NCBI GenBank assembly: GCA_012932865.1
Contig: SAXG01000011.1
Location: 868,001 to 932,000 of the forward strand
Direction of reading: 5' to 3'
Source: Amylostereum areolatum
Lineage: Eukaryota > Basidiomycota > Agaricomycetes > Russulales > Stereaceae
DNA: 64,000 bases
Shown here: positions 28,829 through 55,967 of the stretch, in pieces
Layout: each line of letters opens with the position of its first letter
Position numbering within the stretch: position 1 is the stretch's first letter
The notes under the pieces: model-generated
What the model was told of the DNA's origin: nothing
Databases searched by the model: none
What the model saw: only the letters and a program-made list of their open reading frames with translations
Made by a program: the position numbers and the translations under genes

Positions 28829-29248
28829 TGTCATGGATCGCTCCATTTCTCTCTTCGTTTGCAGACCTCGTACACGCGACGTGTCACGGCACATGACTTT
28901 CCCTTGCATCACATGCTTCAATGACGTCATTGCCCGGACTTCCGAGCGGGGTTCCGCATCCTTATCTATGACATCACTGCTCCGGACCTTCGTCCTCCGC
29001 CCCATGACTCCTTTCCTATTGTTCCCCCCACTCGCACCACTATCGCATCACATCGCACCATCGTTCCCACTTGTATATAAGGACAGTGTTTCTCTTCCCT
29101 TTTCCCTAGACTGTCCATCTCGTCATACGGTACTGTAGCGCACGTTGCACTACCCTAGACCCCGGCACTCTCGAATCTATTTTCTTCTCGCTCCTCCCAT
29201 CATCGCGACTTAGGCGGTTCATCGGTCTCATAAACTGCGTTTCTGACA
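28829..29248 (+). repeat. gypsy-2 5' LTR
   Basis: This 420-bp LTR contains the TATA box at 29074 and the self-priming sequence at 29107-29117. It matches the LTRs at 55527 and 61322. Confidence 0.95.
29074..29082 (+). promoter_or_regulatory. gypsy-2 LTR TATA box
   Basis: TATATAAGG lies 33 nt upstream of TAGACTGTCCA (29107-29117), the expected 5' end of the transcript. The spacing matches gypsy-1. Confidence 0.65.
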
Positions 29249-29250
29249 CC

Positions 29251-29261
29251 TGGACAGTCTA
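29251..29261 (+). promoter_or_regulatory. gypsy-2 primer-binding site (self-priming type)
   Basis: TGGACAGTCTA sits two bases after the LTR and is the exact complement of TAGACTGTCCA at 29107-29117. Eleven paired bases is the number known for Tf1. Confidence 0.7.
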
Positions 29262-30581
29262 CCCCTACGCCTACCTCGCACCCCTCTCTCCATCTACCTC
29301 TGCCGTCTCTACGACGTTAAAAACTCCCACCACGGACCTCCCGAACGCACCGGTCTTCCTCCCGTTCAACGGAAAGCCAATCACCCCCCGCGACGACGCA
29401 CCACTCCCCTACCCTTGGTCCGATGCCGTCACCGTCAACTGCCTCGTCCCCGTACAGAACCTCTGCAAGAAAGATCCCTGGACCGCGCACGGCCTCAACT
29501 TCCGCATCTTCGAGTGGAGGTGGCACAAGGATCACGGTACTGTCGTCCTCGCCCTATACGTCCGGATCACTACGTGCATCAACGTAGATCTCGAACGCCT
29601 TGAATTCACCCTCCACGCCCCCACCTACCACACATACCTCATCCAAGACACCCCCAACCCGATCCTCCAAACCAGTTTCACCTCCGTCTCCCAGTTTAAC
29701 CGCCGGACCCCCGAATCCACCCCGCCACCAGTCCTCCATCCCACCATCAAGGGTAAGACCCTTCGTCGCCGCCACCACGAACATAAGATCCGCCAGGCAG
29801 TAAAAGCCGGCTACCTCACCAAGAAACTCCTCGGCCGTCGCCCCATCGCGGCAGACTTCTTCTAGACCATCATCACATCCTCCACAGCCCCTCGTCCCCC
29901 CACCCCGAACCTTCCCCCAGGCGTCTTTCGAGACTACTGTCCCGAAGAATACTACATCCTCACCTCGCAGCAGACTAAGGAATCCGTACGTTGGCTGCAC
30001 GACGAACCAAACCGGCAACGTCGAGACTGGTACTTCGACGACCGCGACGAACAACCCTACGTTGAAGAATCGGATTTTGCCACCGCTGCGGACGTTCTAC
30101 AGCGCTTCCTGAACCCCCCTCCGACCAACTCGCCCCCACCCCGTCGACGTACTGTAATTGAAGTCCCAGAAGGGATCAACCACAACGACACAACTGGGAA
30201 GTGGTACGCCTATAGACGGAACAAGAACGGAACCCCAGGACAATCAGTAGTTGAGTGGCAGCCCACTCCGTTCAGTCCCGTCCAAGATCACTGGTCGTGG
30301 CATCATAACCAGCAATTCCTCACCCCCGCCGACTTCCTTGTCGCAAAACAAGTTGAGGACAAAGTTGAAGAAGCAGAAGAACACCGACGAGAAACCCTAC
30401 ACCGCCTTGATCAAGAACTCGCCCAATCCCTCACCGTCCCCCTCCCCTTCGACAAGATGTCCGATGCCAAATCCAAACCTGCCGTCTCCAAGGGGAGATC
30501 GGCCCCAAGCCAAAGCCATTCAAAGGCGATAGACGTGACACCCTCCGGTTCTCCCTCGAGCTCCGCATGTTCCTGCGCGTT
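29251..30581 (+). pseudogene. gypsy-2 Gag, 5' part
   Basis: An open frame runs from the primer-binding site without an ATG, through KDPWTAHGLNFRIFEWRW (compare KDPWAWHNWK in gypsy-1). A TAG at 29863-29865 interrupts it, and it resumes to the ATG at 30457. After SKPAVSKG, one missing G in a short run shifts the frame into GPKPKPFKGDRRDTLRFSL. The reading stops at GCGCGTT (30575-30581), where the KDZ element is inserted. The 3' part continues in the matching frame at 50610. How translation starts without an early ATG is not clear. Confidence 0.65.
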
Positions 30582-30668
30582 GACCCCAGACAGTCAAGTA
30601 ATAAGCAGTTAACACATAATCCACGCACCAGTTAACCTGTTCTCAACACAAACCCCACGGTGGGCCCA
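30582..30668 (+). repeat. KDZ element left TIR
   Basis: It starts GACCCCAGACAGTCAA and ends in a strongly conserved inner part, CAACACAAACCCCACGG then TGGGCCCA. The outer six bases do not match the other end, while AGACAGTCAA, CAACACATAA-type and the inner block do. Confidence 0.8.
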
Positions 30669-30990
30669 AGGGGGGTCCGAGGGCCCAAGGGGACCTATCC
30701 TCCGGGGCATGCCAAGGTCATAGGTGAGGGGGTGAGAGGTGGGGTAGGGGTACCCCCGGATCCCACAGGGAATCCGGGAGGATATATTTCTAACATCCGA
30801 GGATCCCCATCCGGGCCACATCCGAGGGGGTCCAAAGGGCCTTTGGGGGGGGGGGGGGTCATCCAGGCCACATCCGGGCCACATCCGGGCCACATCCGGG
30901 GGCGGCAGGGGGTCCTGAGGGGGAGGGGGGGCACCATCCGGGACACATCTGGGATGCATCCGGGAGGCAGTGGGCTCATCCAGGGGGTCA
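30669..30990 (+). repeat. G-rich tandem repeats at KDZ left end
   Basis: Degenerate repeats fill this stretch. The clearest is an array of CACATCCGGGC at about 30869-30900. A G run of about 14 bases lies near 30845. This may be subterminal sequence recognised by the transposase; that is inference. Confidence 0.65.
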
Positions 30991-32475
30991 TCCTTATGGG
31001 GGAGAGGAGGAAGGGGTCCACAGTTGACTTAAACAATCCAAGATCACACATCACCCTGGTTTCTATTTCGGCACACAATGTATTTCTATGGATACTAGCT
31101 ACGTGATGCCACGGGTCCGAAAGGAATGGAGATAAGATTATTAAGTCGGAGATGGGATCATGAGGGGGACGTTAAGAGGGATAACAGTGGAAGGGCTTCA
31201 TCCAGTCCTTCTAGGATCTGGTGCGTGAAGGGGGTGGTACTTGGCATGTTTGGTATGTGATGGAGTGGCATCTGTCGCAGACCCGGACCTAGTGGCATCC
31301 GACCCGGACCTACGGACCCAGACCTACACCCAGAACCCTGACCCCAACTTGCCGAGGGGCCCTCACCACTGTTGGTCTCCAGACTCGGACCCAGACCTGG
31401 TCTTTGGACGAGGGGGGGAGGTGATGAAGGTGTCGAGAGGTGTCGAGAGGTGGACTGGGAATGGCAGTGGCAGGGGATGAAAGTATTGATACACGGAGTG
31501 GGAACCACTGTGAGGGGGGGGATGAAAGTGTGGAGACACGGGCTAGAGGGAGGGGGATCTTTGGCTCTACTGTCGGACCTTAACTCGGATGCATGAGGCT
31601 TGGCCATGATGACATGTCACCAAGTGCTACCTGTCGCGGACTCCGCAGTGGTGGCCAAAAGTGGTGGTCACGCCGCTTCGGTTGTGGGTTTCCACGAGCC
31701 TCATTTTAAGGTGAATGGTCGCATTGGGATGTAACCCTCCGATACCGGACCCTAGTCAATCCTCAGACACGGTGACATGGGAAGGACTAGGCCGGGGCGC
31801 ACCTTGAATATTCTCCACAACCTCTGTCATATCCTCCTCCAGATGGTGTCTCCTCTCCGTCTACCTCGATGTGTGGGGGTAGGGTGCGGCTGGTGCCAGG
31901 TCGGCCCTTCTGACGTAGCAAACATGCTGAAGAGGTGTTGTGCAGGTATCAAGGGGAAGTTGTGATGAGGTCGGGGAACGTGGGAGCGTTTCCGAAAAGC
32001 CTAGCCTGAGAGGAAAGGGCACGGTGGGTGCACAACCGTAGCTACCAGTGATGGGATATTGTGCCAGGTGGCAAGACGGGCAGTCGCCCGAACCCGAAAA
32101 ATGGCTCGTGACCGTGCAAATCCCGACCGGTACGGCTGTCGATCACGTGCCCATCTCAGGATGAAATGTCATAAGTCCACAGCTCTGCACAACTGTCTAC
32201 ATAGAACCACAGACCCAATGAACATCAAGCTGTTACATTCCAAAATGGGTCAAGTAATTCCATTACCAGTCCATGTCCATGCTACAAGCCATCCGAGCCA
32301 TCCGAGCCATCCGCACCATCCGAGCCATCCGAGCCATCTCCAATAGATTCACGAAAACAAGAAGGCTCTCCCAGCCATATGATTCATGCAAGAAATGTAC
32401 TTAAGTGTAATGAAGGTTAGGATTACCATGACCATGGGTAAGAAACATACAACATACCAATCAGTGATCATGGAG
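30991..32475. other. Non-coding left arm of KDZ element
   Basis: About 1.5 kb without a supportable gene. It contains degenerate ACCCGGACCTA-type repeats near 31275-31400, and the frames there are by-products of the repeats. Confidence 0.5.
32287..32339 (+). repeat. 9-bp minisatellite GAGCCATCC
   Basis: About six near-perfect copies of GAGCCATCC follow in tandem, with one variant unit (GCACCATCC). Confidence 0.85.
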
Positions 32476-33896
32476 CTACTTGCACCGGTCTCCACCAGCC
32501 ACATCCTCTCCACCGTAAGGGCCCTCGGATGCGTTCAGGAACGCTTCCAGCCGCGCGCTTAGCTCGGAGACTTTCTTGGCATCCCTCTTGAGGTCCGCAC
32601 ACTGCACCTCCAACCCTTTGACAACGTCAAGGAGCTCCCCATTCTCCTTGTGGATCTCGGAGATCTCGGATGTGATGACAGAGTGGGTGTCCTCGAGTAC
32701 CCCCTCAAAATCGACCCGGGCAGAGTCAATTTGACTTTTCATCGCCACACAGAACTCGTCCAAGGCCTCGATCACAATGTGTTCCAACCCGGAGCCCAAA
32801 CCAAGGTCCCTGGGTCCGACATGCTTCTTCCCTTTTCCACGCCCATACTGTCAGGACACTGTATGATAAATGAAACCAAGGAAAACCCACTTTTACGGAT
32901 GCCGTGGACACCCTTTCCCTTCCCCTTTGGATTCAGCAGCACCACACCCTCGCCGCAGGACGAGCTAGTGGCGGAGGGCACAGCACCCTTCGGACCTCCC
33001 CTGCTCGGACCTTCCTTTCCCACGCCAGACTGGCCTTCGCCCGCCGGACCCACCGAGACCTCCCATCCATCACCCTCGCTGACCTCTACCCCACCATGCC
33101 CACTCTTCTCCATCCTCCCACCAGCAATGGCTCCTTCCCCCTCCCGCGTGGTGTTGTCCGTAGCCACGATATCCTCGTTGTCGCTTTCATTGTCAAGAAC
33201 CACGCAGAAGTCCGGTGGGGGGAAGCCGCCCTCGTCCAAGGAAAGTGGGAAACCAGACTCTTGCTGACAGTCCCGCTCTGGGGACCCGAACAATGGGAGG
33301 TTGAAGTTGGGGAGGTCTTCTTCTTCAGACTCTTCATCTGCACTGCCTCCGAGACTGGACCCTCCACCCGTAGCTCCTGCCTCCGCCTCCGACTTTGGGC
33401 TCACAAGGGCGGACGTGTGGTCGGAAGGAAGAAGGGAGGATTCCACAGTGTTCCCCTCAGGTACCAGTAAATCTAAGTCATTGTTAAAAAGACGTAGAGA
33501 TGAACAACATCCCCAACACGCACCTGGGTTCTCCCACCACCGGCTCACGGACCGTTCCAGGGCATCCGGGATCACAATATCACCCACCAGAATTGCCTCA
33601 TTCATAGCGTCCTCGTCTGGCATGCCCAGAACTTCGTGGAACCAGTTCATATGTCCTCGGAACGGACGGTTGCTGAGGCCGACTTCCCGGGCATATGTTT
33701 TCCGTGCTACCGCCTGGTACAAAGGTCAAATGATGACGGACATATGACCGGCCGGATGGTCACGCACGAATTCCGCCCAAAACATGTCCCACCACTCAGT
33801 CGTCGGCCACCGGTCAACCGCGAGTTTATCCTGCAGGAACAGGACTGCGTGACGCAGGTGGAGCTCCGTGTCAATCGCATCCATTGACGTATTCAT
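32476..33896 (-). CDS. KDZ cargo gene i: WW-motif family, no cysteine cluster
   Basis: Four exons (33896-33768, 33713-33524, 33472-32891, 32831-32476) keep phase and give 418 aa. Exon 1 ends in TTEWWDMFWAEF, and exon 2 ends in SRWWENP. Both tryptophan pairs and the intron after exon 1 (donor GTGCGT, phase 0) are shared with cargo genes ii, iii and vi. The middle is a long acidic, glycine-rich linker. The C-terminus is a probable coiled coil (HKENGELLDVVKGLEVQCAD) closely similar to the end of gene ii. It lacks the six-cysteine cluster of genes ii and iii. The acceptor of the last intron is a best guess. Family and function are unknown. Confidence 0.65.
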
Positions 33897-34366
33897 AGAT
33901 GGCCAGATATGTGGTGTGGAAAAGATTCCGGGGAGAGTGGTGGTGGTAGAGAGAGAAAAGTCCAGATTGATGAAAAATGACGTCGGATGACGTGGTGACA
34001 CCACGGCAAATGCCAGATGTCACATGACCTCTGAGCGCCATGTACAGTCTTAATCTTTAAGTCTTCTGGCATTATATCAAGGATTCATCCAATTACACTT
34101 CAGTTGGGCATGAAAACACAATAGCAAAGTCTAATTACATCCTGTGGCAGGTGATATTATGTACATGCAAAAGCAGGCCGGACCCACAGAGAGGTCCGGA
34201 CCTCCGAAACGGCCAAACGCATAAGTATTGAGAGAGAAAAGAAGCATATGTCAATGGCAGGTATGATACACTGTTACGACTGGTCAGTCGGAGGCAGAGG
34301 AGAATACAGTTTGACAAATGTACCAAGAAGGGCAAACTAAGCCATTGAGCTGGGGTCGGCGGCGGG

Positions 34367-36248
34367 CTAGTCCTCACTCCCGGACCCACGGTGCGCCTCG
34401 GACGTCCGAAGGAAGGCCTCAAGGCGCGCACTCACCTCGGACACCTTCTGGGCATCCTTCTTGAGGTCGGTGCACCTCAGCTCCAAGGACTTCACGACGT
34501 CGAGGAGCTCCACATTTTGCTTGTGGATATCAGAGATATGCGCCATGACGACCGTGTTTGCGTCCTGAAGATCGCCCTGGAACTTGATCCTGGAGGACTC
34601 CATCTGCGCCTTGATTGCGATGCAGAATTTGTCGAGAGCCTCGACGATGACACCGTGTAGGTGACTCTGCTTCCCGAGCGCGGCAGGTCCTACCCGTTTC
34701 TTCCCTTTGTCTGCAGGTGAACCATTAACCTGACCGGATGTCTAAGTACGAAGGAAACATACCTTCACTCCCAATCCCAAGGCCTGCCTTGCCCTTACCC
34801 TTCGGATCCTTCGCTCCCACGCCGACGGATGCACCATCACCAGTGGAGGAGCTAGCCTTGGAGGCTACAGCCCTGCTCGGACCCACCTTTGGACCTGCCC
34901 TTGCCGCATCCTTGACGACCTTGCCATCCGGAATGTACTTGGGCAGCCGGCGAGCCTGACCTTCCTTCAGGAGGCTGAGGCACTCCGCGTTCGGGGTCAT
35001 CATACCCTTTTGGTGGTGGCTGCAGGTCGACTTCTTATCGTAGCACCGGAGGCAGGTGTCGCCCTTGGGTTTCGCCCAGCACGGTGCGTGGGCTTTCCCG
35101 CATTGCGCGCAGTCAACCTGGTGGAGATCAACGTGAGAGATTTTTAACAAGAAGATGGACTTCACGCACCATGTTCGGCCAGTACTCGCCATCGGACGAG
35201 TACACGATCTCAAAGTCATTTTCGTCCAGGGGCGGACCCTCCGGACCCTCCGATCCATCTTCCCCCCTCCCTCTCTCGTCTTGTCCTCCCCCCTCGCCAT
35301 CGTCGCCCTGCCCTCGGTCACCATCGACCGCCACGTCCCCTCCCTCAGCCACACCGACACCGCCCATCCCATCTTCACCATCCATACCTCCCCCACTACC
35401 TTGCCCGACCTCGCCCTCATTCCGACCATCGACTGTGTTGTCGTCCTCGTCATCCATGACCATGCTGAACTCAGGGGGTTCGAACTCGGGGGATCCGAAC
35501 TCAGGGGGTTCGAACCCGGGGGGTCCGACGTCCGCGGGTCCGCTCGCCGGGACGTCCACATCCATCACATCTCCGGATGGCATGCGCTCAGATCCTTCGT
35601 CAGGGAAGTCGAAGGAGGGGAGGTCGAAGGCGGGCAGAGACTCTTCATCAGAGTCTTCGTCCATGGCGCCACCGGACTCCCCACCTGGGCCGACCACCTG
35701 CACGTCCGGATTACCGTCCACTATCGCCTCCGGGTATTGGTTGTCCTCGTCAGGAAGCGTAAACGTGGGGGGCCACGGGTTTGAATTGGGAATGAGAAAT
35801 TCTAAGGGAGAGAAGTTAGAAGGAATGACTGGCACGAAGCGATGACAGGCGCACGTTCTTCCTCCCACCATCGCTCCTCCTGTGGTAGCGTGCCCGGCGC
35901 AGGGCTCACGTCACGCATCCATACCAGTGTGTTCTTGACCATGGCCATTTCGTCGTCCGGGAGGGCCATGACTCGCTCCCAGAAGGTCATGTACCCTCGG
36001 TCCGGATGTTGACCGAGCTCAGCCTCCGCGGCGTAGGCCCGCTGCGCCATTATCTACAAGCACACTATAGTTAGTTTAGTCTTCGCGCAAAAGCAGCCGC
36101 GACGCACCAGTTCATAACCAAAACCAGTCCACCACTCCCCCGTCGGAAGACGGCCAGACGTAATTTTGCCTTTGAGGTGCAGCCACGCGGTCCGGAGGCA
36201 ACGTTCCCTTTCACGAGCATCAGGATAGATGTGTTCGCTGTCGCTCAT
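34367..36248 (-). CDS. KDZ cargo gene ii: WW-motif family with six-cysteine cluster
   Basis: Five exons (36248-36108, 36053-35855, 35801-35170, 35117-34763, 34710-34367) give 556 aa. Exon 1 ends in TGEWWTGFGYEL, and exon 2 holds ERWWEEE. A long acidic region follows, with repeats of PPEFGSPEFEPPEF type. Exon 4 opens with a cysteine cluster, CAQCGKAHAPCW...CLRCYDKKSTCSHH, spaced like a Zn2Cys6-type DNA-binding cluster but with a longer central gap. The C-terminus is a coiled coil (HKQNVELLDVVKSLELRC) like that of gene i. A DNA- or chromatin-binding role is plausible but inferred. Three of its introns begin GTGCG. Confidence 0.7.
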
Positions 36249-36480
36249 GGTGGAGGGGAGTTGTGTGCAGAGGGTTAGCGAAGGGACCGTTGAGATGGTG
36301 GTGGAAGGAAAGGAAAAAGCAACGAGACCGGCGAAGTGACATTGTGACAAGACATATCCGGTCGGCAAATGCCGCAGATCACGTGGCCAACGGACTCGAC
36401 GCGTAATCGCGGACAAGTCTGATCTCTCTTTTGCCATCCACCATCTCCTTGTAAACAACCTCCTTATCACCACTTTCACA

Positions 36481-38169
36481 ATGTCTATGACTTCGGCACC
36501 GCCCTCTCACGGAATGGACGTCAACACGTACATATTCTCTGAGGAAGTCCTCAAGCTCGAAGCCCGGCTGCTGTGCGCCATGGACACGCTGCAAACGAGA
36601 CCTGAGAGGGCAAATGTAATGTGGTGGAATCTATTTAAGCGGACATTAGTGCGTAATCCCCACCTCTTCCCTAGATTTTACTCACTGAGATTTTCCTGTA
36701 GAAACGCCTTATCAACGTCTACGTCCCGGAGGCCCGGCACCTTGGCATCACGGCATATCCCAGGAGCATCACGGAGTTCATCTGGGTTCAAAACATGGTC
36801 GAACGGCGGGATGATCGCGCTCGGGACGGCCCACCTGCTGACACCCTGACAGGACGTGACTGGTGTTCGGAGGCCGAGAGAACAGGCCATAAGGGTGAGT
36901 CCGACGCCTTGCCTCCCACATCCGAGATAACATCCGGACCCCAACAGGATTCTGGCTGAAGAACATCGTATACGATGAACCTGCATCAGAGCACTCCCAC
37001 GACTCGGATCATCCAACGTGGTGGACGAATATGGTGGGTGGCGTACCTTATATATGACACTTTTTTGTGCTGAGCATCGTTTAGAACAAGTGCATCCGCT
37101 GCATGAGCAGAAATCTTGGATGCTGGAACACGGGCAATATTCGGTCCTGCGTCCTCTGCACGCAGGCGAACATCAAGTGCTCGCACAAGACTAAGGGAAC
37201 ACTAAGGACGACCAAGGTGCAGTGGAATCAGTTTCGAAAAGAGGGCGATGCCGGTCGTCAGCAGCGCATCCGGCCGCCGCGCGTTCCTGCCTCGGTGCCG
37301 ACAACCCTGCCTCAGACCCCCCCTCTACCCACGCGTACTGTCCTCTCCCCCGTTCGTCCATGTCCAGAACGCCAGGCCGCCAAGCTTGCGGCACGGAAAC
37401 TAGAGAGGCAGGGAGACATCATCGCCAGCGACAACAATGGAGATAGTGATGAAGACGGTTATGAGGCTGGACATGATTCGGATGAGGAGGATCATCGTGT
37501 GTTTCTCTTTTATCATCCGGGTTAACTTGATCTGACTCTGATACTTTAGCGGAGGTGAAAGCTGGGCTAGACCAGCTTCTTACCCTCCTTGGCACCAGGA
37601 CCGGACCTGCGCTCAAGGAGGCTATATCCGTCAATGATGAGGCGCTCCGTACTACCCTCCGTGTCCACCTCGATGATGCAAAGAAGCAGCTCGCTTACGA
37701 GCTCATCCTCCATCAGGCTCTCCAGGCCATTGTCTCCGATCTCCAGGCGGAGGTCGTCACCGCTGGAGAGGCCCTTAGAGCTGCCAAGAAAAAGCAGGAT
37801 TCAGCGACCGAGCTTCTCATCCGCCGGATGGGGACCCTGACCTTGGCCGGATCCGCCGAGCCCGGACCCACCGAGCCTGGACCCACCGAGCCCGGACCCA
37901 CCGAGGAGGAATCCGAGAGTCGCAGCCATCGTGGCAGTGACACTGCATCGGACACGTCGGACCTTCCGCCAATCGTGGCTTCGCAGGATAAGGTGATGTG
38001 GGAGACCCGTGCTGATGATGACGACTTGCATTCAGAGGATTTGGGTGACGACGAGGACAAGGAAGACGAGGAGGAAGAAGGGGGAGAAGAAGAAGAAGAA
38101 GATGATGTTGAGTTTGTTCTGGATTCGCAGGAAGGGGTGACGTTCACCGACGACGATTACAATGAGTAG
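36481..38169 (+). CDS. KDZ cargo gene iii: WW-motif family with six-cysteine cluster
   Basis: Five exons (36481-36648, 36702-36894, 36948-37033, 37085-37496, 37550-38169) give 492 aa. It is divergent from gene ii, with starts 232 bp apart. Exon 1 ends in NVMWWNLFKRTL before a GTGCGT intron of phase 0. Exon 3 ends in HPTWWTNM. Exon 4 opens with CIRCMSRNLGCW...CVLCTQANIKCSHK, the same cluster as gene ii. Then come a proline-rich linker, a helical stretch, EPGPT repeats near residue 390 and a very acidic tail (EEEEGGEEEEEDD). Function is unknown. Confidence 0.7.
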
Positions 38170-38368
38170 GTCGACCTGTGCAACTTTTTGATCGTGCGTG
38201 TATGTTACATCTTGTACCTCCGGACCCTCCTTGCCTTGTGTCGTCGAAAATGTATCTTGTGCCAGTCATCCGGCCCGATCATCCGGCGAAAAGGTGAGTG
38301 CCGGACACGTGGTATGATACACATTGTGTGATAAGCTGGCACTCCTTTCGTCTTGCCATCACGTCTAA

Positions 38369-41300
38369 ATGTTCAAGGACGAGCAATCCGACAACCAATT
38401 CCCATCGTGGGACGATCCCGACGCTGATGGCACGCTCCTTGATCAGGATGTACCGGACGATCAGCCGCGTGAACTTCCCCCCCTCCTCCCCGGCGAGCAA
38501 GACTGGATCACCGATCACCTCGAGGAGTTTAAGAAACTCACGTACACGGACAAAGGGCGTTGGGTCACGAAGATGCGAGTTATATTTTTTGCAGACGTTC
38601 ACCAAGGCAAGTTGTACCCTCCCGATCGCCCTCCGACAAAGAAGAAAGATGCAGCCTTCCATGAGCGAACTGAAGTAAGGCGCTCGGATGCTTGTATATG
38701 GATACCCTCCTCACTCCAGTGTCCATAGGTGTTCCGCTGGCATATGTTCGAACAAGGTCGTGTCCGATGACCTCGGGACTGGGTTATGCACGATAAAGGC
38801 TTCAACTTCCACGTTGCCTTCCGGATGATGTTCGAGAAGGAGATTCTCCAGCGCCGCGATGAGCTCGTGAACGCAATGACGCCAGAGGAGCGAGCGAGGA
38901 GTAAGAACCCAGAGCTGCAATGCTTTCAACCAGCACTTTCCGAAATACTCAGGGGGCTGACGGAGAAAAATCGGGCGGATATTGAGAAGTACCGGGTCGA
39001 ACTCAATATGGGAGGGCTTCCGGAGCCATTGAAGAGAATGTACGTCCGACCGGATCCCCTCCGAAGGCTGACAGTTGACCTCCACTACAGCAACGCACAA
39101 ACCCTACTTCCTAGAATCTTGTTTGAGACTCAGAGGAAGGTGTGAAGACTCTGTGGGGTCCCGCTCGTCACATTTGGGGCCATTCCTGGCAAGCTGCCCG
39201 GCTCCTTCAAAGTGGAAGTGTATGACTACACTTTCCCTTCCATAATCGATGCTGACTCCACGACAGGTTCGAATACGGCATCGCATGCAACTATCTCGAC
39301 AAGCCATTCACCGAGATGTTTCCGAACTGGGGATGGGAGCCTCTCGACGATAATCTCCCGGAATGGGCACGTGCCTGCAAAAGTATGTCTTCCGGACCCT
39401 AAACTACATGCCCTCCGACTGACCTGTGGCAGCCTTCCGTCCGGACCCAAATAAGCCACATAAGGTGACAAAGTCTGGAAATGTTAAGAAGCCGTGGCCG
39501 AAGATCATTCACAAGGATGGCATTCCTCAGCCTCCGGATGTTCCGTGGACGGCCACTCAGCCGCCGGTTGGGGATAAGCGTCTCTGGTGCCGTGCCTATC
39601 TCACTGCTGAACTCCGCATGTCCTCTTTCTTTCTGTGATCAACATCAAGCTAACCTTGCACCAGGCATCGACTTGGATCGTGGAAATGCACACGTATTCT
39701 GGGGCGCCATCCTAGACGAGGCGATTGGAACATTTTTCAACATGTCTCAGCTTCCACCCCACTGGAATAGGCTGTCCGATCCCGGCAAGTGGAGTCACGA
39801 GCAATGTGGAGACTTTCGCGAGGCAGTGGAGCGTAATCTCGCCGCGTCCGGACGTGGCTTCCACTTTCACCATGTCAAGACCTCAGCAGGAATACAACCC
39901 GTGGTCCCGGCCGCTGACCGTACCTGGTCTCCAGAGCAAGCCGAGAAGGAGGCGGAAGACCGGGCTGATGAGGCGGACGAGGATGAAGCAGAAGCCGAGA
40001 ATCTGACCCCAGCTCGTCGAAAGAGGAAGACGAAGCGAACAAATGCACCCTCTCGTTCAAGGAAGAAATCTACAGCGACCGTCGAACCACCGAGTCAAGC
40101 TCCGACACCGAGACGATCCAAAAAAAACGGCCCCAAAAAGAGGTGCAAAAGGGAAACGTGCTAGCAAGGCCGTAGTAGAATCGTCTGACGAAGCGGAAAG
40201 TAGTGCGGAGCAGGGTCTTGCAACCGGGTCGTCGGACCCTCAGTATCGAAGTGCGAGACAGGAGATGATTGCTGCGGGGGAGGATTCGGAAGATAAACGT
40301 GACAATTGTGTTCCTGTTGCGCGGTGGCCCCACCCAGCATGGCCTGGAACTGCCCCCGACACGGTTGCGCAAGAACCGCAGGCACAGTTCACCTACCTCC
40401 GGACGCTGTCGGACAAGGATCCTTATGTCCGTCTAGTAGATCTGGTCTCTTGTATTCTGGTACATCATCTCAATACCCGTCCCAAGACAATGTGAGCTAA
40501 CCTCTCCTCCTCACACGTAGGCAGCACAGGCAGATCTCAGACTCCCCAAAAACGCACCAAAATGTGGGCTGTGGGATTGGCCCAAGCGATGGATTGGGTC
40601 CGAGCAGCACGAATTTGAGCCAGCGATGATCGAGCTCCGGAACTGCGTCGCGGACTTTAACAACGAACCCCCAACATTTCTGTGGCAAGGGGAAGACAGA
40701 TCATGGGCTGGAAGGGATCGCGCGTCTGCAGCCTTATTGCTCCTTGGGCTATACGATCACGACACAGTGTTCTGGGAAGCAATGAAGAGCAACTCGGCCC
40801 TGTGGAAGGAGTCTACGCTGGCCCCGGATGGTGTGTCCTCAAGAGGAACAATTATGACCTCTTGCATTGGCAAGCTTCCCAAGTATGCACAGAGTGGCAG
40901 GGAAGGAAGCTGGTGGTGGTTGGAGGCAGTGAAGGCCATGACCCTGGCCGCACAGAAAGAAATCGCGAACACAGAGGCTGCAGGCATTCCAGCCAATACA
41001 TCCACGTCCGGCATCCGAAGGAATCCCACTCGCAAGGCACAGCCTCCTCGCGGCTCTATCCATATTCCCCGGTCCGATGAAGAATTTGCAGGCGTACAGT
41101 TAGACAGTACACCATCTCGTAGGATTCCCGTTCATGTTTGTGTGTCTTGTGGGCTGACCACCACAATATATAGGTCCAAGGCCAAAGCCGCGTCCGACAG
41201 CCACTGGCCCCAATACCACGCCCGGCAGGCGAACTGACATGGATGCACTAGCGGAGATGGACACTGACCTTTTCCCTCCTCCAACATTCGACACAGATAT

Positions 41301-41749
41301 ACTGTCCGATGAAGATGAGGGAGAATCTACCTCTCCAGATGTGTTTGGCTCCTCCATTGTCCCAGAACCGTTCGAGGCCCCCGTCTTCATGGCGATCTCT
41401 GACTTGGAGGATGACAAAACCCCTTCGGACGATGACATATCCCACCATGTTCATTTTGTATGGAATCCATGTTCCTCGTCGATGGATGTTCGCTCATGTA
41501 TATTATTCTCAGACACCACCGGCGGCAGATGGGGAGAATCCCGAGAAGCGTCCACAGCGTCGCCAAAAGCCTCCATCAAGAGCAGATTCCCTATATCCCC
41601 CTCCTGAGTTGACAAAGCCCGCAAATTACAAGAAGAAACGCAAGTCGACGAAGGGAGCAGTTCAGTCGGAGGTAGGCCTCGGCGAGGCTGGACCCTCTTC
41701 GAGAGTTGCATTACAGGGGACTGACGTTCCTGACGATGGACGAAAGTGA
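38369..41749 (+). pseudogene. KDZ cargo gene iv: large hypothetical protein, decayed
   Basis: Clear first exons are 38369-38674, 38729-39039, 39091-39219, 39267-39382 and one starting 39433. Coding sequence of the same character continues to 41749. The sequence (DWITDHLEEFKKLTYTDKGRW, VTFGAIPGKLPGS, FPNWGWEPLDD) resembles large hypothetical proteins common in agaricomycete genomes, with no known function. Two in-frame TGA codons, at 38768-38770 and 39143-39145, both fit CGA-to-TGA change at CpG. The exon join near 39620-39670 could not be resolved. The basic stretch PARRKRKTKRTN near 40010 looks like a nuclear signal. The gene may be recently dead. Confidence 0.5.
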
Positions 41750-42250
41750 TTGAGTAGTGTGGTAAACACACCGAGGAAGGGGACAGGAAAGAGGAGAACA
41801 TGAGGATTGCATTGTGGGTGGGGTGTGCGTCGATACGGAGGAGTGTCGGATAGGCAGAAGGTATCAGACAGAGCATTGTGCCATACTGTGAAATCCACCA
41901 CATATTCAGTACCGTAACCGTCCCAGCCACTATACAGACGATTCCTGAATGAAGAATTGATGTATGTGAGAGGAATGCAAAGGTTGACAGATAGAGAGCG
42001 TACCACATCCGAGGTATCCGGAGGCTGGATCTGGGCCCACTGTGTCTCAATAACTTCACCATCCGTGGCGGGAAATCTAACCAGGATCAGTGTCGCCAAG
42101 GGCTGTGTAGAACTGGTATTGTCACCTAGGGAGCCTGTGTGGATCCTGGGTGCTCATGTAATGTACAGCATACATCGCGGAGGTCGGTGGAGTGTGTCGA
42201 GGAGGAGAAAGAGCAGGGTGGGAGACTGGGTGTGACTTGGGTATGCTCAT
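41662..42250 (-). CDS. KDZ cargo gene v: small hypothetical protein
   Basis: Two exons (42250-42126 and 42076-41662) give 179 aa. It starts MSIPKSHPVSHP, has TQWAQIQPPDTSDV and GWDGYGTEYVVDFTVWH, and resembles nothing I know. Its 3' end overlaps that of gene iv by about 90 bp on the other strand, so one of the two ends may be mis-set. The N-terminal 40 residues recur in a second copy starting at 43233. Confidence 0.45.
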
Positions 42251-42469
42251 GGTTCTTCTGAAGTATGATCGATGAGGATCAGAAGGAGTCCTTGGGTCCT
42301 TTTATACTCACTCGGGAGTTCCCACAATGATATCTCACATGACCGGAGGACTTAGATAATCAGAGATGAATTAATTGATGGCGCCCATCCGGCGGACCCT
42401 CCGGGTGCGCGGTGTCAAATGTTTCTCAAGGGGGTGGGCTCAGGTGAGGAAAGCAATGTGATAGCGACT

Positions 42470-42747
42470 AACGAGTACATTCAAGATAAAGTAAATAAAC
42501 GGACCTCCGGCGGACCTTCCAGTGATGGTGCGCCATGCGCCGGGCTAAAAGGAGATGTGGATGGCGAGGATGGATGTACCAGTGGAAGGGAGGACCGAAC
42601 AGACAGAAGGATCGGGGTTCGGTCCTCCCTTCCACTGGTACATCCATCCTCGCCATCCACATCTCCTTTTAGCCTGGCGCATGGCGCACCATCGCTGGAA
42701 GGTCCGCCGGAGGTCCGTTTATTTACTTTATCTTGAATGTACTCGTT
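42470..42747. repeat. Near-perfect 131-bp inverted repeat (hairpin)
   Basis: Arms 42470-42600 and 42617-42747 are reverse complements at about 129 of 131 positions, with a 16-nt loop. The outer ends are AACGAGTACATTCAAG and its complement. Transcribed from either side it would form a long RNA stem. It lies between the two copies of the gene v start. Confidence 0.9.
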
Positions 42748-42759
42748 ACATAGTGAGAT

Positions 42760-43233
42760 GTGACCTAAAATTCCTACCCTTCCCTCATGTTCCCCGGCCC
42801 CTACCTGAACTATCTCAGCCAAATGTTCAACGAGACCGTCAAAGTGCACACGGTCCCGAGCGGCAACTCGGACACGGACAGTACTTTCGACACGCACTCC
42901 CACCAAGCGCAGGCGGGTCTCCAGCTCGTCCGCGACCGACCCCCCTTCGTCCACGGTGTCCTATTCCTCCTTTGGGCACCGTCGCATCCGTCCAGCAATA
43001 ACAGCAACAGCAACAACTTGTCTATCGGCGGGGTCGGTGCCGGATACCAGATCGATCTGTACTGTACACTCCACCCCATCCTACCTCCTATGATGGCGAT
43101 CTTCATACCTATGTGACCACCAGGGGTTCCGGATGTTTTGATGGTGCACAGCATACATCACATAGGTGGGAGGAATGGATTGAGTCGGTGAAGGGGAAGG
43201 ACAGGGCACTGGGTTTGACTTGGGGATGCTCAT
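42760..43233 (-). pseudogene. Partial second copy of cargo gene v
   Basis: An ATG at 43233 opens MSIPKSNPVPCP, then MYAVHHQNIRNPWW, matching the start of gene v. In-frame stops follow. A later frame (VADELETRLRLVGVRVE) reads like protein but cannot be joined with confidence. It is probably a duplicated and decayed copy. Confidence 0.4.
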
Positions 43234-43406
43234 GTCTTCTGTGCTATTGATGAAGATGAGATGTGATCTTTGCTCATTTTTATCCTTCTTCAGATGTTGC
43301 CGGATTCACACATCACATGACGAAAGCGATGCGATAGCAGACATGGTGCGACTAGGTACATTCAAGATATTTTTCAAAAGTCCGGACCCTCCGGCGATGC
43401 GCTACC

Positions 43407-45218
43407 TCACTTCTCGCCCTGCTGAAACTTCCGCATGAGGGCCATGAACGGCGCGAGCTTCTCATCAAGCTTGCGATCGATGAGGGCGCTGATGGAATCA
43501 GCAGTGGTGGTGTCCAACCCACCATCCACCTGCATCGGCTCCACCGCCTCCGGCGCGGCCTTCCCCTTCCCCTTCCCTGCACCAAGCGCCGCCGCCAACC
43601 CTCCCTCCTCCTCTGCCAACATGGGGACCAGCTCCGGTGCGAGCAGGACGTGTCCTCCGCTGGACGCGGCCTTGCGGTACCACACCTCGGACGACTCGGG
43701 GTGGGGGGTCCAGACGGTGTCGTTCAGGTTCTTCAGCTGCGCGAGGGGTTCCTGCACGAGGGTGACAATCTCCGCCGCGATCCGGGTGGAGATGCGATCC
43801 TCGAGGACGCGCATTGCGGCCTCAAGTCCGAGGCCATCTAGATGATGAATGTCAGTATCCTGCGACATAAGACAAGACACACATTGGACTTACCGTAGAT
43901 GTTGCCACCGTCGGAGGCACCCTCCGACGACTCTCCCTCCTGGCGTCGACGCTTGTGGGGGGGGGCCTCTTCTGCTGGGGGGGCCAAATCCGCTCCGGCT
44001 TCTTCAACTGACTTCCTCTTCAACATCGGCGAGTCAGTGGCGATCCCCATCGCAGGGTTGAGGGGGGCCGAGGGCGACGGCGTCGGGGGTCCAGTGGGAG
44101 GGGAGGGGGATCCATGTTGGATCACGTCCGCGTTGTCCAGTGCCTTTGCAGCCAACGTTGACGGCTGCACGGAAGCGGGAGCCGCGGGGGGGGGGCAGGC
44201 TGAGCGGTGGCAGGAGGTGTGGGAGGCGGAGACTGAGCAGGGGCGGGAGCCGTGGGGGGGGCAGGCTGAGCGGGGGCGGGAGCCGTGGGGGGGGCAGGCT
44301 GAGCGGGGGCGGGAGCTGCGGGGGTGGGAGCTGCAGGGGGGGAAGGCTGAGCGGGGGTGGGAGTCGCCGCGGGGGGGGCGCGCTCGGAGGTGGGAGCCAG
44401 AGGGGGGGCGTGCTCGGAGGCGGGAGCCGGAGGGGGGGCGTGCATGGGCGGTGGAGGCGGAGGCGGGGTCTTCTGTGCCACGGAGGCCTTGGCCTTGGCC
44501 TTCGGCTTTGGCTTGGCCGTGGTTTCCTTCTTAGAAGTCGACGCAGTGGGAGGGGGGGCCTTCTTTGTCTCGGATGGAGACACAGGGGGGGGGTGGGCAC
44601 CTTTTTCTCGGACGCGGACGCAGACGGCACAGCCTTCTTGGGGGGGGGTTTAGTTGCCGAGGTTGTAGATGTGGGAGGGGGGAAAATCTTCTGGGCAGAA
44701 GAGGAGGCCGGAGGTGGTGCATCCGGGGCCGGGGTCGGAGCGTTCTTTTTCTTCTTGGCGGTCCAAACATCTAAAGTGATGTCAGTATATGGACCTGGTG
44801 AGTCAAGGGGCACGTACCTTCCTCCAGCCACCACCGAGGGCCAATGTCCCCCACCCACTTCCGTGCGTAAAGGTCCGTGTCGACCGCGTTGACCTCCTGG
44901 AGCCACAGGTGACGGTCTTTGCCTTTCATCGCCTTGTAGATGGCGCCGACAAAGTCCGGGTACTTGTTGATGCCGAGGGCGGCACCCTTCTTGTGCATGT
45001 CCATGGCGAGGGGTTTCTGCCAAAATGCTAGTAAAGGAGGGAGATGGAAAGGTCAGTCAACGCACCAGAACCTCGTAAAACCTGGTCCAAAATACCACCC
45101 CGGGAACCACCTTGCGCCTGTGCAGCTCGCACACGACCTCGTGCAGGATCCGCTCCAAGCGCATCACATCATCGCTGTAGGTGGCGACGTCGGTGTTGAT
45201 GTCTACCGTGGACGACAT
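43407..45218 (-). pseudogene. KDZ cargo gene vi: WW-motif family, frame broken in C runs
   Basis: Four exons (45218-45066, 45016-44818, 44770-43894, 43837-43407). Exon 1 ends in VVFWTRFYEVL before a GTGCGT intron of phase 0. Exon 2 ends in GPRWWLEE. Exon 3 is a long lysine/alanine/proline region with tandem AQPAPPTAPAP repeats. Within it the frame is lost twice, at a run of nine C (minus strand, near 44584-44592) and a run of ten C (near 44186-44195). Both runs are easily miscounted in sequencing, so the gene may be intact in reality. Exon 4 is helical and acidic (LIDRKLDEKLAPFMALMRKF). No cysteine cluster is present. Confidence 0.6.
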
Positions 45219-45483
45219 TTGAGGAGGATGGCAGAGGGACGAAGCGGGAGAGTGTGAGGTCGGTGAGGTGAGGTAAGAGACAAGAGAAGAAAAGAGAAGC
45301 GAAGTTGACTTTCCCGCGCCGATGACAAATATGCTTCCACGATCACGTGGTCGACGCGTCACCTTTGTTCGCAAGTCGTTCCTTCCTCCTTAACATTTAC
45401 CACCATCACGCAGGTAAGGATTACTTTGGAGGATGTAATCTTTTGGGATGACTAACTTTGAATGAGGTTTGCTATTGCAAAAT

Positions 45484-46107
45484 ATGGACAGGACATCCGG
45501 ACATACCGAAGACCGCAATGTCGTGCGCACGTCATTCAGCATGATAGCCCAGTATGGGTCGGAGAGTAGTCAAGCGGGAGGCCAATCCGAACGGCAATGT
45601 AAGGCTTTTTTTAATGAGATAAACTTTTGATCTGCTGACACGGGTGATCCAGCTGAAGAGACCCCGGACATTTCGCTCCTGAGTGAGGCCGGACCCTCCG
45701 GCAGGTTGGCATCCGGACCTCCGAGTCCTCTCACGGACCCTGTGGGGTCCGACAGTGAGGACGATGAGCCTGTGCCAATGACTCTTCCTAGGCTCCAAGA
45801 CGGAGCTCCCGACGTCATGGTTCACCCATGGCAGGTGGAACCGCTTGTGCTGCGTGAGCTGCGTGAGATGCGTGAGCTGAGAGCATCGCGGACAGAGCCA
45901 CTTCCCTATTTCATGGGTGGCCCAGGGTCCCAGGGTCCGGCCGTGCTGCGTCAGCGGAATAACAAGCGGTTGCGAACCAGTCCTGATGGAAAGGGGAAGA
46001 AGCGTGCGCGATCCGGTGAGTACCTCGGTCAGTGTTGGGCTGCTGATGACTGATTATATCATCTTGTAGATATTTCATCCGGGCAAGGTGAGGAAACAAC
46101 GGAGTAG
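45484..46107 (+). CDS. KDZ cargo gene vii: small hypothetical protein
   Basis: Three exons (45484-45598, 45653-46015, 46070-46107) keep phase and give 171 aa. The protein is hydrophilic, with an acidic patch (GSDSEDDEPVP), a charged helix (LRELREMRELRASR) and a basic stretch (KGKKRARS) that could be a nuclear signal. No family is recognised. Its stop is 34 bp from the stop of the convergent KDZ transposase. Confidence 0.55.
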
Positions 46108-46141
46108 TAACTTTTTGTGGGAGGGTACAATGTAAATAATA

Positions 46142-49100
46142 TTACACTGTCACATTGTACTTCCAGAATATCGCCTGAGCTTCCTGCCTTAACGTCGTCC
46201 AGGTTTCTATCTGACGGGAGTCATAGCAAGCTGCTCCAATATCCCCACATCCTAGGTCCGTGTTCCGGATGTTGGACCATTCGGATACCTTTCTGTTGTG
46301 GAACCGGAGCGTGTTCCCCATCTGAGCACGGACACGTCCGATCTGTTCTTTCGTCCGGTCTAGGTTTGCCTTCGCGCGAAGAAGATTGACCCGAAGGACT
46401 GTACAAGAGTGAGCAGGTATCAGAAGGGGTTAGGATGACAACTTCTCACACTCATCCTTCCACGTCGGATTCGAAGAGTCCGCCTCCGACGGGCGATCCA
46501 TTGTCCAAAACCACGTGAGTTGAGCGCGGACGGTGTGTGGGTTGGACGGGTCAATAATAGTGGTGCTTGCTTTGAGGTCTTGTTTGGTGAGGGGTTTGAA
46601 ACGGTCAAGGACAGTCGGATCTGCGTGAAGTCGGCCCAGTGCTTTCCGAGAGTCCATGTAGACTTGTACATGCTGCCGAAGGGTACCGAGGGTCCCCGTG
46701 ACGGCCGCCGAATATGCACGGGTTACCTGGCATTGAGTGGAAGCTGGCCGGACCCCCGTCCGGTACTGAAACGAGAGAATTCCAACACTGTTACGGATCT
46801 CCCCAAGGGCATCATTGGCGACACCGATCCACAGCTGAGTCTCCTCCTCCATGACAGGGCAGTTGGTTTTGCTGCCTCGCCATGTTTCAGACATGGAGGA
46901 TGGAAGCATGATTGGTAGGCACTCTGCTGGAATTTGAGTTGACGTTTTCTTTGCAGGGGAATCTGCAACGGGAAGAAGTTCGATCTCGCCAACCTCGTCC
47001 AACTGGGGAATAAAGTCTGAAGCGGCTCGGACCCCGGACCATCCGAGCTGCTTGCGTATAGCACCGTTGAAGGACATGATTTGTTGCTTCAATTTTGACT
47101 GGCGTCCGGCAATTGTCAATGAGTCCTGACTCGGCCGCCTCTTTTCTGCCTGTAGAGATAGTCTATAGAGAATGTTACAGTGGGATGAGAAGGCAGGTGG
47201 GGAAACTCACTGTGCCCCCCGGAGGCGGATTCCACTTGCCAGCCATTTCACGCGGACCCCTCCCCCAAGAGCCTTTTCCTTCTCTATTAATCGCATCTGT
47301 AGCTCCTTATTCCCCGGAGCTAGGACTTGGTGAGTATGGAGATGATATGGATGGGATGTTGTCGTACCAAGCTCAAGGCGGACATCGAAAATGGTCATTT
47401 TCTCACGATCTGTCTCTCGACAGTTGAGTGCCTCGTCCATCTCGGACAGCCACCCTTCCACCTGTTCTTCTGTCGCTTGGGCTTTGAGCTCCTTATAATA
47501 CTTGTCTCGGTCTGGGAGGTCGGTCTGGGCTTCGCGGAGGCGGCGGTCCAACATTGCGGCTGGATGGAAATTAAGTAGATTCCGGATGTGAGGGTTGTGG
47601 ACGCACACATTCCGATGGCCTTCCTCCAGTTTGTGTTAAATATATGCCAGTTGAGATGCTCTTCACGAGCTGCGGGTGTCATGGCCTGAGCATTTCGGGA
47701 GGCGGCGTTGAGGATCAACCAAAGTGTTTCCACGATCTCGCCATCGATGTATCCTATTCCAGGGATATAAACCGGTGCAAACTTGGCGAAGCAGTCATCC
47801 ACATGTCTGTGGATGTGAAAGACACTGACGCCCTGTTTTATCTTGAGGCCCGGAGGGAGTTCGAGATACATGCTGCCATCGACTCGGCGCCGGAGGTGGA
47901 TTCCGTACTTACACATAATGTCGTACGATACCATAACTTCTTCAATACCTCCGAGACTGTGCTGGAGTGCGCTGCACAATGCATAATCAACATTCGCCTG
48001 CCTAGAGCGGGGTACATAGTCAGTGATACGCATGCAGGGAGGATATGGATGGTGACGGACTTTTCTCCCTTCTGCAAGTTGACGGTTCCAACAGGGAGCC
48101 AGCATCCATGGTCTGCACATGCCACAGAGACTATACCGGACACATCCCTTCCTTTGTGTTCCAAGTCAGCCTGCAACACTGCACGGTGGTTGACACACTT
48201 CACTCTGGTGGTCTGAAAATTAATAAGTTCAACATTTACATTACGAAGGACAAGATATCCGGACCTTGGTCTCCACCGCATTCGCAAGATGGGTTTGGTA
48301 ACGCGCTTCCGGGACAAAATACCCAGTTCCATGACCCAATCGGACTTCCTTTTTCTGCGGGGTTGCGGACGCGAGATGTTGTGCGCTGTAGTTTCCATCT
48401 AGGACGACGGTGGCAATGCACTTGAACCTAGAGCAAGGATATGTCAGTACTTGCAAAGGGACGTGGGAAGCTGGTGCACTTGTCTGGATCATCCTTCCAA
48501 TTCACCTCCAGATTGACACCAGGTTGAGGACAGGTTATGCATCCAAGTGTTAGTTGTCCTGGGGCCAGTGTAGGGGAGTCGGATGCGTGAAATCGTTTCA
48601 GCAACGTCAAATAGCGATATTGTCGATTTGTTCGGCGGAGTTCCTGGTAGCGAGTCTGGATTTTGTCAGTGCCATTGTTAGGGGTCCGTACGGTGTCCGA
48701 AGTGGATAGGGACGTACCGGTGTTTTCCCAGGGGACCTTCGGTACGATTTCACTGTCACCTGTTGAAAATATGAGCTGAGTGTTGTGTGGGATATGATAT
48801 TTTGGTCGCAAGCATCATCCAATGCAGAAAATGTAAACGCAGACTTGGGAGTCTTGACGCTTGCCGGATACAATCCCAGTTTGAGTAGCTGTAGGTCATC
48901 GGCAGCAGCTTCTTCGCATTTGCAGAAATGGACCCCTATGCGATGAGCACCTGTTGAATGGACGACCACCATGATCCTGTTGTTGAATGGATCTACGAAG
49001 ACGGGTTGATCGGATGCGGGAGATGGGAGGGGTGGGATGGGTGTAGTCGGGGTGGATGGGACAGAGGTGGATGGGACAGGGGTGGAAGGTCTTGATGGTG

Positions 49101-50028
49101 TTGGTGTAGTGAGTACTGGTGGAGGATGGGGTTGGGGGGTGGAAATGGACTCCGGTGGTGGCGTCGGGTCAGGTGTGGGCATCGTGGGAGCGACAAAATG
49201 ATTGGACGTAGGGGGCGCTGACTGGGGTGGTGGTGTGGGCTCCGGGGTATAAACCAGAGGTGGGAGATGATCGTGAGCGTCGGGAGGAGGGGTCGGATGT
49301 ATCGGAGGAGGGGTTGGATGGATGGATGGATGAGTTGATTGTTTGCTTCCAATGGGAGCCGCGTGTCCGAGAGTGATACTAGATGTTGATGGGCATGGCT
49401 GTCCTCCGTGTCCAAGATGAATGATCACACCCACATCATGTAACCAGGCATCAGTGAAGTGCCCTCCAGTCCACCGTTGGACACGATGGAAAGGATGACG
49501 GAGGTGGCCCTTGCGGAGGCACTCTGCACAAACATTCGGAGAGCCGAAGCACTGCTTGCACCGCCAATTCCCATCCTCAACCCCACAATCAATGCACTTG
49601 ACAGACGTCGGACCCTCCCGGCCATGCATAACGGAAGTGTACTGGGGGATCCTTGCCTTCCACTCCTTCATGAAGGTATTTTGAGACTGGACATCGGATG
49701 GTATGAGGTGATTTGGTGAGATCCAAAAGGTCGACAGACTCACCTTGCCAGCCATCCGTTTGGTTGGAAGTTGAAGGACGGGAGGGGGCACGAACGGTAG
49801 GTGGTCATCGTGGTCATCGTCGTGTGTGAAGTCGTCCTGAGGGGGATCGCCGTCGTCCAGCCATTGATCCTGGGCCTGTTCTAGTCTCTGCTTGGCTAGT
49901 GGGCTGAGTACTCTGTTCTTGACCAGGTCTCCCATTGCTCGTGCTTGAAATTTGATTTTGCCATACCAATTCCGTTTAGCCTTGTTCTGGGTGACTCTTG
50001 ACTCCGAATACACAGTTTTCCTGCCCAT
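46142..50028 (-). CDS. KDZ-family transposase with CxC2 cysteine cluster (intact)
   Basis: Eight exons (50028-48718, 48655-48480, 48427-48265, 48212-48061, 48001-47607, 47559-47211, 47162-46450, 46398-46142) keep phase throughout and give 1,171 aa. It starts MGRKTVYSES. The CxC2 cluster (CIDCGVEDGNWRCKQC...CAECLRKGHLRHPFH) spans about residues 144-205, followed by a proline-rich linker. Next come VVVHSTGAHRIGVHFCKCEE near 346 and GCITCPQPGVNL near 475. The transposase core holds VVLDGNYSAQHL, SYDIMCKYG and IDGEIVETLW; their acidic residues are candidates for an RNase H-fold active site. The C-terminus is helical. It should mobilise the surrounding 20-kb element. Confidence 0.92.
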
Positions 50029-50514
50029 GGGGTATGAAGGGGCACAGATAGCAGTGGGTAGAGATGGGGATTTATGAGGAAGGGGGATTGACACGTATGG
50101 TCGATGGGAAGACACACATGCTGAGATTATTGGATCGAAGGGAGACCACGTGGAATCAGTACCTTTCTAATATAATTCATCTAACTTAGTGCCTCGGATG
50201 GATCGGACGGATGAACTAGAGACAATGTGGGATATTATCAGACATGGTATGTGGAATGTGTGCAAAAGGGTGGGTAATCAGGTAGTAGACAGAGTGGAGG
50301 TAGATATTGAAGCCTCCGACATTTGCTAGAGGGTCCAAAGAGGTCCGAGAGTCCGAGGGTCCAAGGGTCCGAGGGTCCGAACTGTCACTGAGGGTCCGGG
50401 ACATTTCTGCAGTGTCCGAGGAGCCCTGGACAGTGGAGGAGGGGGCAAGGGGAAGTATCTGAGGTGGTATCATAGGTGGACCCCACATGGGCCCATGTGT
50501 ACCTTGGGGTACCG
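50029..50514. other. Right subterminal region of KDZ element
   Basis: It holds the transposase promoter and, at about 50330-50410, degenerate GGTCCGAGGGTCC repeats. No gene is seen. Confidence 0.5.
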
Positions 50515-50602
50515 TGGGCCCACCGTGGGGTTTGTGTTGATAACGGACTAACAGACGCGTGGGTTATGTGTTGACAACAGCACTAATTGACTGTCTTATG
50601 TG
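50515..50602 (-). repeat. KDZ element right TIR
   Basis: Read inward on the minus strand it has AGACAGTCAA, CAACACATAACCCACGC and CAACACAAACCCCACGG in the same order as the left TIR. GCGCGTT follows at 50603-50609. Confidence 0.8.
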
Positions 50603-55946: not shown

Positions 55947-55967
55947 CCCACTACTGATTGACGGTAG

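Follow-up and report, generated by a model that had tools for sequence, protein, structure and literature searches.

A KDZ-superfamily transposon with a conserved multi-gene module in the gag of a Gypsy retrotransposon of Amylostereum areolatum

The stretch analysed here, referred to as the window, comprises 64,000 nucleotides of the basidiomycete Amylostereum areolatum (contig SAXG01000011.1 of assembly GCA_012932865.1, positions 868,001 to 932,000). Its positions 30582-50602 are one KDZ-superfamily transposon, inserted into the gag of a Gypsy long terminal repeat (LTR) retrotransposon with duplication of 7 bp. Comparisons covered the source genome (57.1 Mb, 182 contigs), whose contigs are labelled C1 and so on; the window is C13:868001-932000. 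The element and its insertion site are as follows:

30582..50602, no strand: KDZ transposon, 20,021 bp, termini 5′-GACCCC...TATGTG-3′
30575..30581, no strand: left 7-bp target-site duplication, GCGCGTT
50603..50609, no strand: right 7-bp target-site duplication, GCGCGTT
28829..55946, plus strand: interrupted host Gypsy LTR retrotransposon
28829-29248 and 55527-55946: LTRs of the Gypsy host
28824-28828 and 55947-55951: 5-bp duplication of the Gypsy host, CCCAC

Other copies of the same family and of a related one (families I and II, below) start and stop at the same bases. The host was delimited by comparison of its LTRs (identical at 411 of 422 positions), by its flanks and by insert-free copies on C150 and C34; three genomic gag copies, two on C150 and one on C34, run uninterrupted across a single GCGCGTT. 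Both the borders with their 7-bp duplication and the nesting in gag had been proposed in an initial annotation made from the letters of the window alone, and the empty gag sites that it suggested looking for were thus found in the species' own genome. It had also reported terminal inverted repeats. These hold for bp 7-90, over which the ends match at approximately 80%, and fail for the outermost 7 bp, which differ between the ends (GACCCCA vs CACATAA, both read inwards).

30582..30671, plus strand: left terminal region, of which bp 7-90 form the imperfect inverted repeat with the right end
50513..50602, minus strand: right terminal region, inverted repeat of the left end
30654..30668, plus strand: subterminal near-palindrome CCCACGGTGGGCCCA
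50515..50529, minus strand: inverted copy of the near-palindrome at the right end

When the pattern CCCAYGGTGGGCCCA was searched on both strands of the window, the near-palindrome CCCACGGTGGGCCCA occurred exactly twice, 72-73 bp inside each end, and related forms lie at both ends of two further families (III and IV). It is a natural candidate site for a dimeric binder. Single hexamers are also clustered at the ends, e.g., GTCCGA, which family I has six times in its right 700 bp against an expectation of 0.26. TCCG/CGGA cores were considered as binding sites at the ends and rejected, since their end counts straddle the whole-element counts.

Six genes were modelled inside the element:

32476..33896, minus strand: gene C′, model of 435 amino acids, paralogue of C
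34251..36248, minus strand: gene C, model of ~520 amino acids from an inner ATG, with a Zn2Cys6-spaced cluster
35022..35111, minus strand: Zn2Cys6-spaced cluster of gene C
36481..38169, plus strand: gene A, model of 492 amino acids in 5 exons, with a Zn2Cys6-spaced cluster and an acidic tail
37091..37180, plus strand: Zn2Cys6-spaced cluster of gene A
38369..41749, plus strand: gene B, model of 943 amino acids in 10 exons
43407..45218, minus strand: gene D, model that may extend to 42545, with an N-terminal domain in common with A
46142..50028, minus strand: KDZ transposase T, model of 1,184 amino acids in 7 exons, with a CxC2 cluster and a KDZ domain

The models come from a small spliced-gene predictor of our own that uses conservation against the family II element on C139, run with the element divided into six stretches and a high penalty on new starts. 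At default settings B fell into two pieces, T into three and D into two, C′ was missed and an extra frame of 39 amino acids appeared opposite A; since the division and the forced long models shape the outcome, the gene count is partly uncertain. Five non-transposase genes (C′, C, A, B and D) are our best model. The "at least seven cargo genes" proposed earlier were not recovered, with the caveat that our own count of five depends on the division into six stretches. Comparison of N-terminal domains supports A/D and C/C′ as paralogue pairs (z scores of 9.2 and 23.4); C-D similarity is marginal (3.2), and a common origin is unsupported for A-C (0.4), A-C′ and C′-D. No Pfam match was found for B, and neither a transposon domain nor a host-type domain was found in the scanned frames and models of A-D.

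The identification of T as a KDZ transposase, already made in the initial annotation, is borne out by matches to the KDZ transposase domain PF18758 (93.2 bits, cut-off 26.6; expectation value (E) 2.4e-26) and to the CxC2 cysteine cluster PF18803 (75.3 bits, cut-off 27; E 5.2e-21). That it was called intact needs some qualification: T can be spliced as an open model of 1,184 amino acids, but the window copy carries two private changes (HIHGH to HIHRH and ETLWSILN to ETLWLILN), and the G and S so altered are kept in the other B-bearing (B+) transposase sequences that cover those positions.

A and C each contain C-x2-C-x6-C-x8-C-x2-C-x6-C; these are the sole two matches in six frames of the window, the rest of which holds none, and 200 shuffles of the element gave no match. 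The pattern was searched in C′ and not found there. Zn2Cys6 clusters are defined by the spacing C-x2-C-x6-C-x5-12-C-x2-C-x6-8-C, with which both clusters agree. An alignment of nine A and C proteins, drawn from families I-IV, shows six cysteines, one W and one H to be invariant; it leaves aside a tenth, that of gene C on C118. By eye, the C-terminal part of gene C is coiled-coil-like. We regard the A and C clusters as Zn2Cys6-like only.

Together, the extra genes form a conserved module, for the most part syntenic, that one KDZ group of this genome carries. Related elements were sorted into four families, of which family I is that of the window, and copies with largely the same extra genes, another check suggested earlier, were found in all four. 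The order C (leftward), A and B (both rightward) and, further on, the leftward transposase is kept throughout, and across families A and B are ~29-80% identical to their family I counterparts. D was seen in families I, II and IV, and not in III. Family III (C140) has C, A, C, A, B and T, i.e., a duplicated C-A pair, and family IV, as seen on C118 and in the complete element of C34, has C, A, B, D and T. Because related elements keep mostly the same order, the extra genes look like working transposon parts rather than random passengers.

Perfect 7-bp duplications with both ends on one contig delimit 12 elements, two short derivatives included:

Family I: window, GCGCGTT; C115, GCCTTGC; C34, GCTCATG
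Family II: C139, ACGACAG; C53, TGTCACG
Family III: C128, ATGATGT; C126, CTGGTCC; C172, GTACACC
Family III, short derivatives: C102, AACTGGT; C27, GAAAGTG
Family IV: C34, CCTCATG; C2, CAGTGGT

Five further perfect pairs are split, by assembly or rearrangement:

C150 in two parts, TGTGTGG
C138/C146, CATTCCT
C66/C130, TGCATCA
C140/C56 crosswise, CTGGCTA and CCTCAAT

Three duplications have one mismatch (C114 and a short element on C104, both family III, and C1, a family II element whose two ends are in opposite orientations), and a short element on C168 shows an 8-bp match, GTTTTCAC. Partnerless ends were excluded from the counts (families I-III: C4, C84, C7, C96 with three ends, and C142; family IV: C179, C150, C114 and C85). 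The C115 element is a full family I copy of 20,113 bp, ~98% identical to that of the window; the family I copy on C34 is stretched over 45.5 kb by two inserts, one of which contains the same Gypsy, and another, on C150, is in two parts of disturbed order. The family II elements measure 18.6 kb (C139) and 18.1 kb (C53), and family IV has a complete, separately bounded element of 16,368 bp on C34. The lengths of the C126 (48.2 kb) and C128 (81.8 kb) elements imply inserts.

Some arrangements are recorded here in their own right. The duplications of C140:196584-215336 and C56:899998-918744 (family III) are swapped crosswise, which looks like an inter-contig crossover or an assembly join. Short elements of ~5.3-6.5 kb with family III ends occur on C102, C27, C168 and C104; the one at C102:274364-280520 (6.16 kb, AACTGGT duplication) has no KDZ or module match among those listed and is therefore read as a non-autonomous derivative. 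At C114:309903-374036, a family III element (321438-342160) is apparently nested within a family IV element. Two pairs of right ends share an identical outer flank (C150:1293037 with C96:86227, and C96:561822 with C142:269179), pointing to larger duplicated segments or to shared host repeats as carriers.

The association of the module with KDZ extends over the genome. The search with B gave at least 132 matches, reduced by hand to at least 32 loci by dropping rows of the same gene, and that with KDZ at least 155 matches, reduced to at least 104 loci. Among the B loci listed, 31 of 32 have a listed KDZ on the same contig, 29 within 30 kb and 22 within 15 kb, a distance that takes in at most 5.5% of the genome around listed KDZ loci. 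In 21 of those 22 (21 of all 32), the KDZ lies 5.6-14.6 kb downstream on the opposite strand, so that the two converge. Nearly all listed gene C matches are on stretches with A, B or family ends; the exceptions are a lone C at C179:88731 and a C109 stretch with C and A and no listed B or KDZ. In a tree of KDZ half-domains (42 of the 104 loci sampled; 34 sequences used after eight short, off-target or near-duplicate ones were dropped), the 13 B+ sequences form one group with support of 94/93 and none of the 21 others inside; the C130 sequence was placed among the B+ on its family IV end repeat rather than on a B match. The initial annotation had named two patterns that would speak against a single transposon, namely extra genes found elsewhere without KDZ or these terminal repeats, and ends that do not recur together. 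Within this genome, the A, B and C matches found lie with few exceptions at this KDZ clade, and the ends occur together again, at different 7-bp duplications, in all four families.

No TET/JBP match was found in the window, in agreement with what had been noted earlier; the genome as a whole gave 27 matches, 13 over the Pfam cut-off, which serve as a positive control. For 20 of the 27, a KDZ locus is found less than 5 kb away, at 1.3-4.1 kb; these make up a separate TET+ KDZ population. Of the 104 listed KDZ loci, B lies within 10 kb at 19 and TET within 5 kb at 20, with no locus common to the two sets.

Between families I and II, ratios of nonsynonymous to synonymous substitution rates (dN/dS), in a listing that covers only frames below 0.6, are 0.16-0.56 for B (9 frames), 0.26-0.46 for A (5 frames) and 0.17-0.43 for T (7 frames). 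Synonymous divergence (Ks) between the window element and that on C139 is very uneven: 0.06-0.09 in the transposase core (46433-48427), 0.79-1.04 in A and 0.25-1.19 in B. Since Ks is low in the core and high in A and B, the two families are mosaic, which points to segment exchange between subfamilies. Four family I copies, compared over window positions 35447-42641 and 45056-49434, have 315 private substitutions; 272 are of the cytosine-to-thymine (C-to-T) type, and 227 of these 272 are at CpG dinucleotides, which hold ~23-26% of C and G in the sequence compared. Family I divergence thus bears a signature of methylation-type decay. The window copy shows 14 private non-CpG changes in ~7.2 kb, which marks the spread as recent. 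A TET+ KDZ family has 77 of 137 C-to-T changes at CpG; for the Gypsy host, the figures are 15 of 17 in the window copy and, for the older copy on C34, 24 of 58. CpG decay was tried as a discriminator between the TET+ family and the present one and rejected, as it is seen in both and the TET+ copies are of greater age.

With its KDZ domain, CxC cluster and 7-bp duplication, the element belongs to the KDZ superfamily. Within it, Kyakuja is defined by a 7-bp rather than an 8-bp duplication (Kojima 2025, PMC12730594, as excerpted), and on this count it is the nearest group. Kyakuja termini are 5′-CA..TG-3′ without inverted repeats, none being reported in the excerpted text for two Laccaria families (PMC12730594); here the termini are 5′-GA..TG-3′, with imperfect repeats over bp 7-90. 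Because the left terminus and the inverted repeats do not fit, we call the element Kyakuja-like only, set against Kyakuja by its published description alone. According to the same excerpts, TET+ Kyakuja elements of Agaricomycotina share with it the KDZ transposase, the 7-bp duplication, the right terminus ...TG-3′ and the presence of an extra travelling gene; they differ from it in that it has no TET/JBP, some five other genes, GA instead of CA at the left terminus, and imperfect inverted repeats (PMC12730594). The Cryptococcus neoformans elements KDZ1-KDZ3 also have a KDZ transposase, a CxC zinc region and terminal inverted repeats, but are ~9.2-11 kb long, have 8-bp or 4-8-bp duplications and CxC1 instead of CxC2, and an accessory module goes unmentioned in the excerpted text (PMC12810828). 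Pleurotus ostreatus likewise has intact KDZ transposases behind a CxC2 cluster, but without an accessory module in the excerpted description (PMC7641404). Of similar size (16-20 kb), the En/Spm elements of Chondrus crispus are DNA transposons enlarged by 4-5 open reading frames, but belong to another transposase superfamily and to a red alga (PMC6431247, in excerpt).

In the excerpts of the KDZ papers examined, TET/JBP is the extra gene that is discussed, and those of the genome paper of Marasmius oreades call KDZ and Plavaka elements understudied (PMC8290104). A conserved multi-gene KDZ module is not described in the excerpts examined of the literature on KDZ accessory genes, zinc clusters and giant basidiomycete transposons, a scope outside which stands Iyer et al. 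2014, which may mention some of the genes.

Starships, a class of large multi-gene mobile elements of fungi, move by means of a tyrosine recombinase and are loaded with variable host-type cargo. The element described here resembles them in size and gene number and differs in its KDZ transposase and fixed module; their DUF3435 captain has no match in the window and five elsewhere in the genome. It is not a Starship. The single large KDZ transposon within a retrotransposon remains of the initial interpretation; the extra genes are not read here as diverse captured cargo of the Starship type.

We hypothesize, and consider probable, that this KDZ lineage is a multi-gene one that encodes its own DNA-binding accessory proteins; the module itself is observed, and its function is what we propose. 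Cut-and-paste is the mode of transposases of this kind, and the KDZ transposase with its CxC2 zinc region would cut and join the element ends. A and C would be dimeric binders of specific element sequences, most probably among them the near-palindrome CCCAYGGTGGGCCCA inside both ends, and would either help to unite ends that are 16-20 kb distant from each other or regulate the element's expression. B may be a further nuclear accessory protein. With such roles, the module would serve the transposon and not the host. A broader formulation, which we offer only tentatively, is that of a eukaryotic DNA transposon lineage with a multi-protein transposition apparatus (KDZ, Zn2Cys6-like palindrome binders and the large, conserved protein B), which is passed on as one block and takes the place of the TET/JBP strategy of sister KDZ lineages.

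Several results weigh against this proposal. The gene models are computed rather than transcript-based, and some frames on the opposite strand have equally low dN/dS (e.g., 36510-36677 minus, 0.13; 47324-47575 plus, 0.17), so that this ratio alone fixes neither genes nor strand and rather supports selection on the region. The Pfam family Zn_clus is matched by five of six peptides, all below the cut-off (best 18.5 vs 21 bits; E < 0.1 in three), one of the five scores better with another family, and the window gene C peptide has no Zn_clus match at all; comparison of the zinc cluster with solved structures gave no good match, and on C118 gene C is interrupted by a stop where the invariant W should be. 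An AlphaFold model of the best-conserved exon of B, from 8 sequences, reached a confidence score (pLDDT) of 42.8. D has only chance-level hits in family III (E up to 10), and TCCG/CGGA shows no consistent enrichment near the ends (counts per 700 bp in families I-III: 7 to 17, against 9.9 to 12.2 element-wide).

It is also conceivable, if rather unlikely, that the module is an anti-silencing kit that replaces TET/JBP and shields the element from DNA methylation or recruits activators. B and TET never occur together at the 104 listed KDZ loci, and the private substitutions of family I (272 of 315 C-to-T, 227 of 272 at CpG) imply methylation-like pressure. Zn2Cys6 proteins are, in addition, classic activators. 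However, the copies decay at CpG regardless, and as the TET+ KDZ family (77 of 137) and the window Gypsy (15 of 17) have a CpG excess too, the sequence does not allow a protective effect to be recognized.

We find it much less credible that the extra genes are captured, Starship-like passengers of benefit to the host. Large size, several genes on both strands and the lack of any transposon domain in the scanned A-D frames and models would suit such an origin, but content and order are largely alike in four diverged families, and most listed matches are at these elements despite the C109 stretch and the lone C on C179. Furthermore, the scanned frames and models gave no host-type domain, and DUF3435 matches lie outside the window. 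A composite, in which several adjacent repeats have no more than their end sequences in common and the transposase acts on neighbours unrelated to it, would be in keeping with the Ks mosaic of families I and II. It can be practically dismissed, being already contradicted at several sites by complete 18-20 kb units that keep the same borders and have perfect duplications.

For a family that might otherwise be broken up into unrelated hypothetical genes on annotation, exact ends, empty sites and gene models are now supplied. With a second KDZ group of this genome having a conserved module of some five genes, whether large DNA transposons need helper proteins to unite distant ends becomes a testable question, as does the possibility that KDZ lineages have found alternative answers to host methylation.

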